Below the pieces are notes generated by a model. The model saw only the letters and a program-made list of their open reading frames with translations, had not been told where the DNA came from and did no database searches. DNA of 38,481 nt from Bacteroidota bacterium (GTDB taxonomy: Bacteria; Bacteroidota; Bacteroidia; Bacteroidales; B39-G9): NCBI GenBank assembly GCA_015222055.1, contig JADFUR010000028.1, forward strand, positions 1 to 38,481, read 5' to 3'. Shown piece after piece: positions 1 through 29,234 of the stretch. How positions within the stretch are numbered: the first letter of the stretch is position 1; every line of letters starts with the position of its first letter. The translations under genes and the position numbers were made by a program.

Positions 1-77
1 TGTAAAAATCTTTTGAGATTTATTTTCCATTTATATTAGGTTATTAAGTTGACGAAATGTCTCTTGCCATTGCACAT

Positions 78-191
78 AACACTTCAATAAGACACACTAG
101 TGTGTCTTATATTCACTATATATTTAATATATCAAACCCAAAGTTAGAAAAAAAAAAGACAATAAAGATATTAATTGGGATTGTATTTTTT
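78..191. repeat. Long direct repeat, left copy, flanking the R-M cassette
   Basis: This stretch reappears at 2532-2643 on the far side of the restriction-modification genes, in the same orientation. By eye about 13 of ~113 positions differ. The last ~34 bases (from GACAATAAAGAT to the T run) are identical, and the divergence lies mainly in the outer third. The two genes and nothing else lie between the copies. The sequence just outside the pair differs on the two sides. Confidence 0.9.
87..110. repeat. 24-bp perfect palindrome
   Basis: The 12-base arm ATAAGACACACT is followed directly by its exact reverse complement, with no loop. In the right-hand repeat copy (2541-2564) the same place reads ATAAAACACCCT then AGAATGTCTTAT, so the symmetry is largely lost. 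It could be a dimeric repressor operator or a recombination site. The adjacent methyltransferase has an N-terminal HTH, but the site is ~400 bp from its start, so a link is speculative. Confidence 0.8.
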
Positions 192-510
192 GAAAAGTTG
201 ATTTAAGTAATGAAAAAAAAGACAATTGATTGGTGCTGAAAGTTGTGGTAGTTAGATATTTTGACGAGCGGTGGGTAGCGGGTAGGATTATTAACTATAA
301 AAAAAAATGAGATTTTTAGACGATCTGATGATTGATGTTTGATTGTGCGTTATTTATTGCATATATTTTTCAAAATGCTATATTGTTAATTATTTTTCAC
401 CTGTGTCAATTTTAGACTTATTTTGTAATTATTTTTATATTTTTTAGGCACAGAGTTGTTTGTTCAAAATTTATTTGTATTTTTGTAACCAATGTGTAAG
501 GTTGTGTAAC

Positions 511-1854
511 ATGGTTATAAAAGATTATTATTCGCTTTCAGAAGCAGCAGATATTTTAGGTAAAAGTAAGGAAACTCTCAGACGATGGGACAGAGATGGT
601 AAATTAGAAGCTGTACGTGAACCTATTAGTAATTATAGAGTATATAGAAAAGAACAATTAAGTATATTTTCAAATCTTCTTTCAAACGAATTAGAAGATA
701 CAACTGACAATTCAGTTACACCTTATGTTGATTATAATGTTTTAGAATTATTTGCCGGAGCAGGTGGACTTGCTCTTGGTTTAGAAAAAGCGGGTTTAAA
801 ATGTGTAGCTTTAAATGAAATTGACAAGTGGGCTTGTCAAACATTAAGAAAGAATAGACCAAATTGGAATATTTTAGAAGGAGACGTTAAATCTTTTGAT
901 TTTACAAAATACAGAAACAAAGTTGAAGTAGTCACAGGTGGTTTCCCTTGTCAATCATTTAGTTATGCTGGTAAAAGATTAGGCTTTAAAGATGCAAGAG
1001 GAACATTGTTTTACGAATTTGCAAGAGTTGTAAAAGAAGTTAATCCTCCAATATGTATAGGCGAAAATGTAAAGGGATTATTATCTCACGACAAAGGCAA
1101 AACATTAGAAGGTATGATTTCAATTTTAGATGAAATTGGTTATAAAGTCGCACCAATAAAAATATTAAAAGCAATTAATTACAAAGTTCCTCAAAAACGA
1201 GAAAGATTAATATTAGTTGGTATTAGGAAAGATATTGATATTGAATTTAATTACCCTAAACCGCACAATCAAATTTATACTTTATCAGATGCTTTGAAAA
1301 AAGGTGCTTTATATGACTGTGATGTTCCTAAATCAAAAGGTTCTGAATATCCACAACATAAAAAAGACGTTTTAGACTTAGTTCCACCAAAAGGTTATTG
1401 GAGAGATTTACCATTGGATATTCAAAAAGATTATATGGGCAAAAGTTTTTATCTAAGTGGTGGAAAAACAGGAATGGCAAGACGAATAGGTTGGGACGAA
1501 CCAAGTCTTACTTTAACTTGTAGTCCTGCACAAAAACAAACAGAGAGATGTCATCCCGATGAAACAAGACCTTTTACTGTTAGAGAATATGCCCGTATTC
1601 AAACTTTTCCTGACAATTGGAAATTTTTTGGCTCTATTTCTCAACAATATAAACAAATTGGTAATGCTGTTCCTTGTAATTTAGGACAAGAGGTTGGGTA
1701 TTCTATTGTTAAATTTTTAAATACTTACTCAAAGCAAAATCAGGATAATTTATCTTCAATTTCTTTGGCTAAAACATCAATTGTTTCTTCCAATATTTTT
1801 GTTCCATCAACTTCAATAGCAACTTCACCTAAGGTATTGATTAAATCTAAATAG
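511..1854 (+). CDS. DNA (cytosine-5) methyltransferase with N-terminal MerR-like HTH (type II R-M)
   Basis: Transfers a methyl group from S-adenosylmethionine to C5 of cytosine in a short target, protecting host DNA from the nuclease encoded opposite. The ATG at 511 gives 447 residues. Residues ~5-50 (YYSLSEAADILGKS... TLRRWDRDGKL) form a MerR/excisionase-like winged HTH. The catalytic domain shows all key C5 motifs: I (FAGAGGLALGLEKAG), IV with catalytic Cys (GGFPCQSFSYAGKR), VI (GENVKGLL), VIII (PQKRERLILVG), IX (RPFTVREYARIQTFPD) and X (QIGNAVP). The target-recognition region lies between VIII and IX. The last ~38 residues, from 1740 on, are read through the antisense of the nuclease gene, are Ser/Ile-rich and are not a recognisable family tail. 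The HTH may serve autoregulation, as in M.SsoII and M.EcoRII, although those HTHs belong to other families. Specificity is not determined; GGNCC-like is a guess from the partner. Confidence 0.95.
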   Translation: MVIKDYYSLSEAADILGKSKETLRRWDRDGKLEAVREPISNYRVYRKEQLSIFSNLLSNELEDTTDNSVTPYVDYNVLELFAGAGGLALGLEKAGLKCVALNEIDKWACQTLRKNRPNWNILEGDVKSFDFTKYRNKVEVVTGGFPCQSFSYAGKRLGFKDARGTLFYEFARVVKEVNPPICIGENVKGLLSHDKGKTLEGMISILDEIGYKVAPIKILKAINYKVPQKRERLILVGIRKDIDIEFNYPKPHNQIYTLSDALKKGALYDCDVPKSKGSEYPQHKKDVLDLVPPKGYWRDLPLDIQKDYMGKSFYLSGGKTGMARRIGWDEPSLTLTCSPAQKQTERCHPDETRPFTVREYARIQTFPDNWKFFGSISQQYKQIGNAVPCNLGQEVGYSIVKFLNTYSKQNQDNLSSISLAKTSIVSSNIFVPSTSIATSPKVLIKSK

Positions 1855-2447
1855 AATCCTTTATTTCCTGTAAGTCGATACCAGAATTCTTGACCAATTA
1901 TAACAGGATATTTTTCCTTAATTTTTTTATAATGAGAACTAAGTTCTGATTCTTCACCATATAAAACACCAATAACCATATCATTAACCCCAATGATAAG
2001 ATTGTTGGTTCTAGCTAAATTTATGATTGCTTTAAAATGGCCATAAACAGTTTCTACATCGTCTTTGTTAATTGTATTTGGTCCTGATTTTAATTGGCAA
2101 TATTTTTTTCTTCCATCTATTGCATCAATATATTCGATATCTATTCCAGAAGTAGTTGAACCATAACCGTCAAAAAGTTTACTTATTAATTTTTGAATCT
2201 TCATGCCGAAAGACGTGGTAATTGAAGAGCCTAAAACCCTAGGCAAAACAAGAGCTTCGGCTATACTTCTCGGTTTTGAATTCCCTTTTAAAAAATTAGC
2301 TAGATATTTATATAAGAATGGATTTACATTATATTCAGAAAGTTTACTAGCCCTTTTACATCCTTCAATTATATGAGCTTCAACTATTTCATTTCTGAAA
2401 AAATCTTTCGCTTTGTTTAATATTATTTCTTGTTCTTTTTTATTCAT
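1740..2447 (-). CDS. Type II restriction endonuclease, EcoO109I/TdeIII-like, PD-(D/E)XK fold
   Basis: Predicted to cut DNA at the site protected by the convergent methyltransferase. The 235-residue protein begins at ATG (MNKKEQEIIL). It resembles EcoO109I and TdeIII, which belong to the GGNCC-recognising group, in several collinear blocks: NPFLYKYLANF, the conserved ILPRV-like block (VLPRVLG, ~67-73), a nuclease core with D103 and Q118-L-K120 (GIDIEYIDAIDG... CQLKSGPN), a V-x-GV-x-YG strand (IGVLYGE, ~159-165) and the GQEFWYRLTG block (~185-194). The core is a D...QxK variant of PD-(D/E)XK. The gene is convergent with the methyltransferase and overlaps it by 115 bp, so the two have separate promoters. 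No controller (C) protein is present. Family assignment rests on recalled similarity; nuclease role likely, specificity uncertain. Confidence 0.8.
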   Translation of the reverse strand: MNKKEQEIILNKAKDFFRNEIVEAHIIEGCKRASKLSEYNVNPFLYKYLANFLKGNSKPRSIAEALVLPRVLGSSITTSFGMKIQKLISKLFDGYGSTTSGIDIEYIDAIDGRKKYCQLKSGPNTINKDDVETVYGHFKAIINLARTNNLIIGVNDMVIGVLYGEESELSSHYKKIKEKYPVIIGQEFWYRLTGNKGFYLDLINTLGEVAIEVDGTKILEETIDVLAKEIEDKLS

Positions 2448-2531
2448 TTTTCAAAAGTAAGAAATCAGATTGAGATTTTTATAAAAACACTTAATTTTAT
2501 AATTAGCAAATCATTCTTTCTAATTTATGCC

Positions 2532-2643
2532 AACACCTAAATAAAACACCCTAGAATGTCTTATCTCCACTATATATTTAATAGTGAAACCCAAAGTTAT
2601 CAAAAAAAGACAATAAAGATATTAATTGGGATTGTATTTTTTT
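2532..2643. repeat. Long direct repeat, right copy, flanking the R-M cassette
   Basis: Same orientation as 78-191. It lies between the nuclease start and the kdsA promoter. If the copies arose by target duplication, this one would mark the right border of the inserted R-M unit. Its palindrome is degenerate compared with the left copy. Confidence 0.9.
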
Positions 2644-2768
2644 GGAAATTAATTATTGTTCACAAAAAATTATTGAAAATTTGCAGGTAAAGCAGGTGGT
2701 AAATCAACAATACTTCTCCTTAATAACCACAAAATTTATTAAAACATTAAGTTCTTAAATAAAATTAA

Positions 2769-2776
2769 TAACTTTG
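2769..2776 (+). promoter_or_regulatory. Bacteroidota -7 box (TAnnTTTG) for kdsA
   Basis: TAACTTTG matches the Bacteroides consensus TAnnTTTG and sits 37 bp before the kdsA ATG, leaving room for a short leader. No clear -33 TTTG box is visible upstream, so the call rests on the -7 element and position alone. Confidence 0.5.
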
Positions 2777-2813
2777 TCGCAAAACAATTATAAACCAAAC
2801 AAATTTATAAAAG

Positions 2814-3632
2814 ATGCTTAGCACATTACCTTATATTAAAAATTTAGATTCTAATAATTTTTTTCTTTTAGCCGGTCCTTGTGTTGTTGAGGGTGAAGAA
2901 ATAGTTTTTGAAACAGCTCAAAGAATTAAAGAGATAGCCGACAGATTAAAAATTCCGTTTATTTTTAAGGCATCTTACCGTAAAGCTAATCGTTCGCGCT
3001 TAGATTCTTTTGCAGGCATTGGCGACGAAAAAGCATTAAACATCTTAAAAAATGTAAAAGAAAAACTGCACGTTCCTATAGTTACCGATATTCACACCGA
3101 AGAGGAAGCCGCATTGGCAGCACAATATGTTGATATTTTACAAATACCGGCTTTTTTGTGTCGTCAAACAAATTTGCTTGTTGCAGCAGCCAAAACAGGT
3201 AAAATAATAAACATAAAAAAAGGTCAGTTTCTTTCACCTTCTGCAATGAAATTTGCCGCAGACAAGGTTGTTCAGTCAGGAAACAACAAAGTAATGTTTA
3301 CCGACAGAGGCACAATGTTTGGTTATCAAGATTTAATTATTGATTACAGAGGAATACCGGAGATGCAAGAGATTGGTTATCCTGTTATTCTCGATATTAC
3401 TCACTCGTTGCAGCAGCCAAATCAAAGCTCAGGTGTAACAGGTGGCAAACCCGAATTAATAGAGACAATTGCTAAAGCTGGTATTGCAGTTGGAGTAGAT
3501 GGTATTTTTATTGAGACACATCCAAATCCTGCAAAAGCAAAATCTGACGGAGCCAATATGCTTAATTTAAATTATCTTGAAGATTTATTAACAAAACTTG
3601 TAAAAATTAGACAAACAGTGGTTAATTTATAA
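2814..3632 (+). CDS. kdsA: 3-deoxy-8-phosphooctulonate synthase (Kdo-8-phosphate synthase)
   Basis: Condenses phosphoenolpyruvate with arabinose-5-phosphate to Kdo-8-phosphate in the cytoplasm, the first committed step to the Kdo of the LPS inner core. The 272 residues match the family length. Visible signatures are LLAGPCVVEGEE, FKASYRKANRSRLDSFAG (substrate-binding block), VTDIHTEEEA, IPAFLCRQTNLL, INIKKGQFLSP, TDRGTMFGYQDLI and FIETHPNPAKAKSDGANML. C23 (in AGPC), H197 (DITHS), E234 and D245 correspond to the Cys-His-Glu-Asp metal ligands of the Aquifex-type enzyme, whereas E. coli KdsA has Asn at the first position. This enzyme is therefore predicted to be metal-dependent. The gene appears monocistronic, with its own -7 box upstream and a hairpin terminator downstream. 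Confidence 0.97.
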   Translation: MLSTLPYIKNLDSNNFFLLAGPCVVEGEEIVFETAQRIKEIADRLKIPFIFKASYRKANRSRLDSFAGIGDEKALNILKNVKEKLHVPIVTDIHTEEEAALAAQYVDILQIPAFLCRQTNLLVAAAKTGKIINIKKGQFLSPSAMKFAADKVVQSGNNKVMFTDRGTMFGYQDLIIDYRGIPEMQEIGYPVILDITHSLQQPNQSSGVTGGKPELIETIAKAGIAVGVDGIFIETHPNPAKAKSDGANMLNLNYLEDLLTKLVKIRQTVVNL

Positions 3633-3653
3633 CTTAAATTTGATTTGATAACT

Positions 3654-3727
3654 AGCACAAGCGTCCTCGCTTGTGCTTATGTAAAACAAAAAAGTAAAAG
3701 GTACAAGCGAAGACGCTTGCACCTTTT
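3654..3727. repeat. Pair of REP-like hairpins between convergent genes (possible bidirectional terminator)
   Basis: Hairpin 1 (3654-3677) has a perfect 10-bp stem, AGCACAAGCG with loop TCCT. Hairpin 2 (3696-3727) has a 14-bp stem with one mismatch around the same CAAGCG core, loop AAGA, ending in CCTTTT. The same family recurs at 16758-16779 and 16812-16835. The location between kdsA and the convergent transporter suits a bidirectional terminator, but the dispersed copies point to a mobile REP-type element. Confidence 0.8.
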
Positions 3728-3763
3728 AAAATATTTTTTGAATAATATCCTCAGATTGTCAAA

Positions 3764-4534
3764 TTAATATTTCGATTGTGTTTCGTGGTAAGTAGTGTCA
3801 ATATTTAAATATTTCGATAGCAGTTTAACACCAATATAAAAAGGAATAGTGTCAATCAAAGCAGTAACCATTTTATAAATATAGTTTGATAAGATAAGTA
3901 TTCTTAGGTGATGAAAAACTGTTTGTCCTTCAGGAATATGTATTGCTTTTGCATAATAATAAGTTATTAAAATTACAGCCAGAGAATCGACCATTTGACT
4001 TGTTAAAGTTGATCCGTTATTTCTGAGCCATAATTTTTTACCTTTAGTCAACCGTCGTAACATATGAAAGATTTGCACATCAACAAATTGAGCCGTAAGA
4101 TAAGCTACCATAGAAGCACCCACAGCACCAAAAGTTAATCGTTGAATTTCGTAAAAAACTCTGTTATGGTCGCTCAAAGGAGGAAGTCCTGTGCTGGGAA
4201 CAATAGTTGATTGAGGAGGCAGAAAGCCACCTATCCATAAAATAAAGATAACCCAAATATTTAAAAATAAGCCGACCCATACAACGGTATTTGCTCTTCT
4301 TTTGCCGTATAGCTCACTAATAAAATCTGTGCATAAAAAAGTTATTGGGTAAGGTAAAACACCTATAAATACAAAAAAAGGAACTTTAAAATTGAAGATT
4401 GTAAAAGAAAGGTCAATGAGTTTAGTCAGCCCAAGAATATTAAGCATTGTTAAAGACCCTAAGAAAAATCCCGTTAAAATTAGAAAAACAAATTCTCTTC
4501 TTCTTGAATAAATATCATCTGAGCCTTTAAACAT
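3764..4534 (-). CDS. Queuosine-precursor transporter family protein (YhhQ/VUT, DUF165)
   Basis: Inner-membrane protein of the VUT/YhhQ family, whose E. coli member takes up the queuosine precursors preQ0 and preQ1. The preferred start is the ATG at 4534 (MFKGSDDIYSRRREF, 256 residues). A TTG nine codons upstream is the only reason to extend it. About six hydrophobic helices are visible, with family hallmarks: the acidic/aromatic segment LPYPITFLCTDFISELYGKR, FGAVGASMVAYLTAQFVDV and the histidine-containing loop FHMLRRLTKGKKLW. The last helices include ILSNYIYKMVTALIDTIPFY. The gene converges on kdsA with the hairpin pair between them. Queuosine-precursor uptake is the family role, and nothing here tests the substrate. 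Confidence 0.85.
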   Translation of the reverse strand: MFKGSDDIYSRRREFVFLILTGFFLGSLTMLNILGLTKLIDLSFTIFNFKVPFFVFIGVLPYPITFLCTDFISELYGKRRANTVVWVGLFLNIWVIFILWIGGFLPPQSTIVPSTGLPPLSDHNRVFYEIQRLTFGAVGASMVAYLTAQFVDVQIFHMLRRLTKGKKLWLRNNGSTLTSQMVDSLAVILITYYYAKAIHIPEGQTVFHHLRILILSNYIYKMVTALIDTIPFYIGVKLLSKYLNIDTTYHETQSKY

Positions 4535-28911: not shown

Positions 28912-29234
28912 TTTTGTTTAATTTTTTAATGCTAATATAAAAGATTTTCGTGTTATCAAAAAATGCGTATTAAAGCCCTAAAACCATCGAAATATAAACA
29001 AGAGTTTCAACAATAGGAATTTTTGAAATTAAAAACACAATTGATGCTTTGGATATTTAATTTTTAAAGCCCATTAAAATTTTGAACTAAACTAATCTCC
29101 TGCTACAAAACGATTACATACTAAAGCATAAATTTTAATAATTTACACTAACAACGAATAAATAAAAATTTTTACTCATACAAAATTTTGTAAATTTATC
29201 CTAACAAAAAACTGTACCTAAAACAAGACCTTTT
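28912..29234. other. Intergenic region, nothing recognised
   Basis: AT-rich 323 bp with no gene. Only small symmetries are seen: TTTCAA...TTGAAA around 29008-29031 and a 14-base palindrome TACAAAATTTTGTA (29180-29193). It marks the left edge of the accessory island. Confidence 0.5.

Follow-up and report, generated by a model that had tools for sequence, protein, structure and literature searches.

The window, by which we mean the whole stretch of DNA that was analysed (38,481 nucleotides), opens with a restriction–modification (R-M) gene pair lying between two long direct repeats, and the question raised by this locus is how the pair came to be there. The preliminary description of the sequence had attributed it to a one-off insertion with a long target duplication, an event reported for R-M genes in Helicobacter pylori (Nobusato et al., 2000, as cited in PMC4978471). 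The H. pylori insertions resemble the present locus in placing R-M genes between direct repeats of ~100 bp and differ from it in that the repeat here appears to be a multi-copy recombination site. We propose that the R-M pair is most probably one cassette of an integron-like system, in which a tyrosine recombinase with its gene on another contig (C26) joins circular cassettes at GTT. A cassette would begin at G|TTRNNNNYMAT and end in an attachment site made up of an AT-rich leader, a palindrome, ~5 nt and GTT; the recombinase would join the circular cassette to a site at GTT, and cassettes would pile up head to tail in a single orientation.

The R-M gene pair and its flanking repeats

The two direct copies (78–191 and 2532–2642) are 87% identical over 114 bases with E = 8e-32 in a genome search, which excludes chance. 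The repeat of ~113 bp first described at 78–191 and 2532–2643 is thus real, but its true extent is longer, as a profile built from all copies stretches the two to about 47–237 and 2507–2688. Their start-to-start spacing, taken from ungapped blocks, is 2,454. As originally stated, the repeats enclose exactly two genes, which are convergent: a C5 cytosine DNA methyltransferase (511–1854, + strand; PF00145, E 9e-86) with an N-terminal MerR/HTH_17 domain (PF12728, PF00376) and an EcoO109I-family type II restriction endonuclease (1740–2447, − strand; PF14511, E 7e-35). The PF14511 and PF00145 matches of these adjoining genes are both above cut-off, which identifies a type II R-M system of EcoO109I type. 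No recombinase is encoded between the two repeats, in agreement with the earlier statement that a mobility enzyme is lacking inside. A plasmid search with the methyltransferase returned broad family matches only, the best among the matches listed being 52–54% identical.

Read on the − strand, the window would comprise, in order, an upstream attachment site, the R-M cassette, the cassette's own site and the start of the next cassette. The upstream site (2532–2688, −; genome search and profile) adjoins the chromosomal kdsA gene and has the core GTTGGCATAAAT (2523–2534, −; cassette-start consensus). The complete cassette (80–2533, −), as defined by the repeat spacing and the boundary, measures 2,454 bp from G|TT to G|TT; the nuclease is its first gene, starting 84 bp from the sharp edge, and the methyltransferase is further cargo. 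It is closed by an attC-like attachment site (78–237, −; profile match 47–237 and a 43-copy alignment) that contains a perfect 24-nt palindrome, ATAAGACACACTAGTGTGTCTTAT, at 87–110 (no strand assigned). The adjoining recombination-site core, GTTATGTGCAAT (69–80, −), follows the consensus of 44 cassette starts and would be crossed over after its G. The next cassette's start (1–77, −) is cut by the contig end and recurs unchanged at the ends of contigs C81 and C4, there adjoining other repeat copies. An Rfam scan of window positions 1–4200 gave chance-level matches only. A strong, terminator-like inverted repeat (GCACAAGCG...CGCTTGTGC) is located after kdsA at 3655–3723 and attracts chance microRNA matches in Rfam.

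Copy number and arrays

The genome searched was the window's own assembly (3.75 Mb, 118 contigs, 98.6% complete). One search found at least 40 full or partial repeat copies and a second query three more on contig C97; with more than 40 copies, the repeat is not the single-copy target that had been supposed. On contigs C94, C113, C83, C15, C11, C9, C105 and C97 the copies occur in series with differing genes between them. Most units contain cargo genes only, are about 1–3 kb in size and have no room for an integrase. The arrays are spread over many contigs of this fragmented assembly, mostly distant from the integrase gene.

A single insertion of the R-M genes into one ~113 bp sequence, as proposed for H. 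pylori, would account for the two direct copies that flank exactly these genes, but dozens of unrelated genes are bounded by the same repeat, only one of its edges is sharp, the conserved core reaches into the cassette (see below) and relatives are without a single copy beside kdsA. We consider this origin highly improbable; it is contradicted by the more than 40 copies and the core shared among cassettes. What survives of the preliminary description is an acquired unit between repeats, whereas its single insertion event does not agree with the head-to-tail arrays of one orientation elsewhere in the genome. The divergence between the two copies, which had been taken as a sign of an older duplication, dates nothing, since 13% is the normal spread within the repeat family. 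G001, a genome of the same genus, lacks the repeat and has other sequence beside kdsA, although this is no clean empty site, as the neighbouring gene differs. More generally, the kdsA neighbourhoods of G001, G003 and G004 have other neighbours and no repeat, and the G002 contig stops before the site.

Repeat anatomy and cassette boundary

Alignment of the copies reveals an asymmetric repeat with one sharp edge at AAC (window 78–80 and 2532–2534; GTT on the opposite strand) and an opposite side that fades over 100–150 bp. On the − strand, each copy consists of an AT-rich leader, TAACTTTG, ~30 nt, a palindrome with arms of up to 12 bp, ~5 nt and GTT. The palindrome is off-centre within the repeat and is weak in the copy at 2532. 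Its GCTAAC...GTTAGC ends are able to pair, with folding z values of −3.9 for one window copy and −1.2 for the other. The hairpins of this genome show too few compensatory changes to support folding of one strand. The palindrome may nevertheless work in folded, single-stranded form, like attC, which recombines as a folded bottom strand with R″/L″/L′/R′ boxes, or it may serve as a pair of protein sites.

The −7 promoter element of Bacteroidota is TAnnTTTG. This motif is present in 44 of 46 copies, most often ~65 bp before GTT. In the two window sites it is represented by TAACTTTG (139–146 and 2592–2599, both −), a sequence that also precedes kdsA in this genus. The motif suggests a putative promoter in each site that could drive the next cassette, an arrangement different from that of class 1 integrons with their single Pc. 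In the Oceanihabitans copies described below, TAnnTTTG was not seen at the corresponding place.

The first genes obey a strict orientation rule: in all 39 copies with a gene within 400 bp that gene points away from the sharp edge, with none opposed, and it starts at a median of 66 bp beyond the edge. The 44 distinct cassette starts conform to GTTRNNNN(Y)(M)A(T), with GTT in 44/44, R in 42/44 and A at position 11 in 44/44. GTT served to place the edge, so its count is partly by construction; the A at position 11 is independent of that and has a probability of ~1e-14 given the downstream A frequency of 0.48, a conclusion that is unaffected by the position having been chosen after looking. Thus, the conserved site extends ~12 bp into otherwise unrelated cassettes. 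GTTR fits 42 of the starts and the strict GTTRRRY only 4/44; as in integrons, the variable bases after GTTR suggest that sequence identity may not be required at these positions. The same 77-bp cassette start adjoins three distinct repeat copies, since window positions 1–77 are identical to the ends of C81 and C4, yet the adjoining repeat copies differ mutually. An assembly break caused by a repeated cassette could explain why the three contigs stop at this point.

These features also bear on a dispersed palindromic repeat of the MITE or REP type that lies near genes by chance and has no role in moving them. Such an element would be expected to combine high copy number with a palindrome, but it would explain neither the 39/39 orientation, nor the conserved core that continues into otherwise unrelated cassettes, nor the Aequorivita junction described below; it is contradicted by the conservation on the cassette side, and we regard its probability as negligible.

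Cargo

We surveyed 61 proteins encoded between or beside copies using Pfam and PADLOC. The cargo includes a second type II R-M system with a HaeIII-type nuclease, giving two C5 methyltransferases in total, and further defence-type matches to ABC-three-component proteins, RhuM, SocA/Panacea, IrrE-like, YhcG and NYN domains. Non-defence cargo includes a cellulase, a lipocalin and a radical SAM protein, among others. Such a mixture is what integron cassettes carry (PMC8618304).

The C26 recombinase and its relation to the sites

A tyrosine recombinase of 379 residues is encoded at C26:40749–41885 and is the only full-length relative that adjoins a repeat copy, the 3′ end of its gene running straight into the copy. 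The protein contains Phage_int_SAM and Phage_integrase domains. Its score passes the cut-off set for NF040815 (XerA type, `site-specific tyrosine recombinase/integron integrase') but falls short of the one for TIGR02249 (integron integrase); no canonical integron integrase was matched above cut-off in this genome. Between blocks aligned with IntI4 (2a3v), the C26 protein has 16 residues compared with about 58 in IntI4, and a predicted model of the L070 protein (88% identical to the C26 protein; mean pLDDT of 80) has no extra helix there. Thus, the IntI additional domain, which is located near patch III, is absent from the C26 recombinase. This domain has been called essential for integron function (PMC8138268) and a defining feature of IntI (PMC9668308). 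The nearest solved structures to the L070 model are XerA, Xer and IntI4, in a comparison that barely covers the N-terminal 70–100 residues. The C26 recombinase is presumably the enzyme that cuts at the sites, presumably by way of a circular intermediate.

Fragments of the last 28–57 codons of the integrase gene, some with stops, are found at sites on C113 and C114; by these 3′-end fragments the integrase gene is physically tied to the site family. In the alignment, the common site type has a leader similar to the integrase 3′ end. A second site type, the leader of which is clearly the integrase gene 3′ end, is concentrated on C113 and C114 (L022, L032). The window also contains a decayed remnant of the integrase gene 3′ end (28962–29057, +; 32 codons, 72% identity, two stops). 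It is followed in the same direction, up to 32219 (+), by small ORFs and a 433-residue ATP-binding protein that is AAA/OLD-like by eye. The segment 28962–32219 could represent a second cassette position, degraded and lacking a recognizable hairpin site.

Integrase remnants at several sites (28–57 codons, some with stops) and the similar leader of the common site type could also point to tandem accretion of small integrative elements, each of which once had its own integrase that has decayed to a 3′ end. However, the cargo-only units of about 1–3 kb are mostly too small for an integrase, and the Oceanihabitans array sites described below match the integrase-adjacent site in the hairpin part only, so we judge tandem accretion to be quite unlikely.

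Relatives in Bacteroidota

Relatives of the recombinase are encoded at thirty named Bacteroidota loci, at many of which a hairpin lies directly past the integrase stop and is followed by ~5 nt, GTTR and then unrelated sequence. The hairpin sequences vary between groups of relatives. Over 48 loci, a hairpin-plus-GTTR score averaged 4.65 compared with 2.41 in mononucleotide shuffles; the score lies above the 95th percentile of the shuffles at 46% of these loci and not at the remainder, so that some relatives have no clear site. When each locus was searched with its own integrase-adjacent site, few extra copies were found, with a clear second copy only in L085, which indicates that the arrays often use diverged sites or sit elsewhere.

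Aequorivita viscosa and A. sinensis share 98.3% identity across 2,285 bp that include the integrase and the site. Their similarity stops within ~20 bp of GTT, beyond which each has a different gene, i.e. the neighbour has been replaced at GTT between the two species. In Oceanihabitans sediminis, seven sites of the same kind (AATAAACTCCCTTGGGTGTTTATACAATTGTT) are distributed across ~25 kb with genes between them, most in the direction of the sites. This array is on a different contig from the integrase, and its sites resemble the integrase-adjacent one in the hairpin part alone. Two of the O. sediminis sites (L120, near 7771 and 12521) are identical over more than 150 bp upstream and then differ within the hairpin; one of them may be a recombinant or a partial duplicate.

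Relatives at E ≤ 1e-45 are present in 147 of 295 sampled Bacteroidia genomes, a count that includes recombinases with unchecked surroundings, arrays having been checked in few. Among the matches listed, 13 on the minus strand end (3′) within 300 bp of the contig start, and the only plus-strand match that starts within 300 bp of the contig start is itself truncated. Repeated sites just past the integrase gene would break assemblies in this way.

Comparison with known systems

The arrays resemble integron arrays and CALINs (IntI/attI/attC) in their head-to-tail, mostly one-gene cassettes of one orientation with GTTR junctions, in the palindromic site that closes each cassette on its 3′ side, in the tyrosine recombinase gene adjoining one site, in their defence-rich cargo and in the occurrence of arrays without a nearby integrase. 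Two features that mark integrons are thus found here, namely one-orientation arrays with related palindromic sites (39/39) and an integrase that adjoins an attachment site. They differ from integrons in that the recombinase has no IntI additional domain and carries an N-terminal extension of ~100 residues, the site lies at the 3′ end of the integrase gene, which reads into it, and a conserved A lies eleven bases into the cassette; the palindrome is off-centre, unlike that of classical attC. Two other features of an integron in the strict sense, the IntI additional domain and the GTTRRRY core (4/44), are not found, and we therefore do not classify the system as a true integron. Judged from its sequence features, it is an integron-like cassette system. 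The absent IntI domain, the palindrome (off-centre, and weak in the 2532 copy), the dispersal of the arrays mostly far from the integrase, the separate contig of the Oceanihabitans array and the fragmentation of the assembly are points against this assignment.

A true IntI-type integron with diverged attC sites, in which the C26 recombinase has no part in the arrays and the canonical IntI was lost or left unassembled, would be in keeping with GTTR at 42/44 cassette starts, the cassette orientation and the cargo, and CALINs are common in fragmented assemblies (PMC9024848). Against it, this genome yields no match above the integron-integrase cut-off, the 3′ end of the C26-type gene forms part of several site copies and related patchless integrases are found directly before such sites in other Bacteroidota. 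We consider a true integron to be unlikely, and retain the integron-like system.

The C26 recombinase shares the catalytic core of XerA-type tyrosine recombinases (PDB entries 5hxy and 4a8e) as well as scoring above the NF040815 cut-off; the recombinases in these entries act as single Xer recombinases, whereas the gene here is situated at site arrays. The delta-attI cassettes of mobile integrons (PMC12901181) likewise finish with part of the integrase-side site, but the part here includes the integrase gene 3′ end and is present at several sites.

Implications

Integrons are considered to be rare in Bacteroidetes, and IntegronFinder 2.0 lists just one complete example for Bacteroidetes proper, from Salinibacter (PMC9024848). 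In a search of open-licence papers, arrays of this kind were not found described for Bacteroidota; this silence is weak evidence that the cassette system is new. We incline slightly towards a separate and widespread class of cassette capture in Bacteroidota, in which recombinases without the IntI domain would act on compact, sequence-diverse hairpins followed by GTTRNNNNYMAT. If it exists, this class would escape software that requires canonical IntI and attC. If the patchless integrases, which about half of the sampled Bacteroidia genomes encode, commonly run arrays, a large pool of mobile defence and adaptive genes would have been overlooked, and the indispensability of the IntI additional domain for cassette recombination would become testable.
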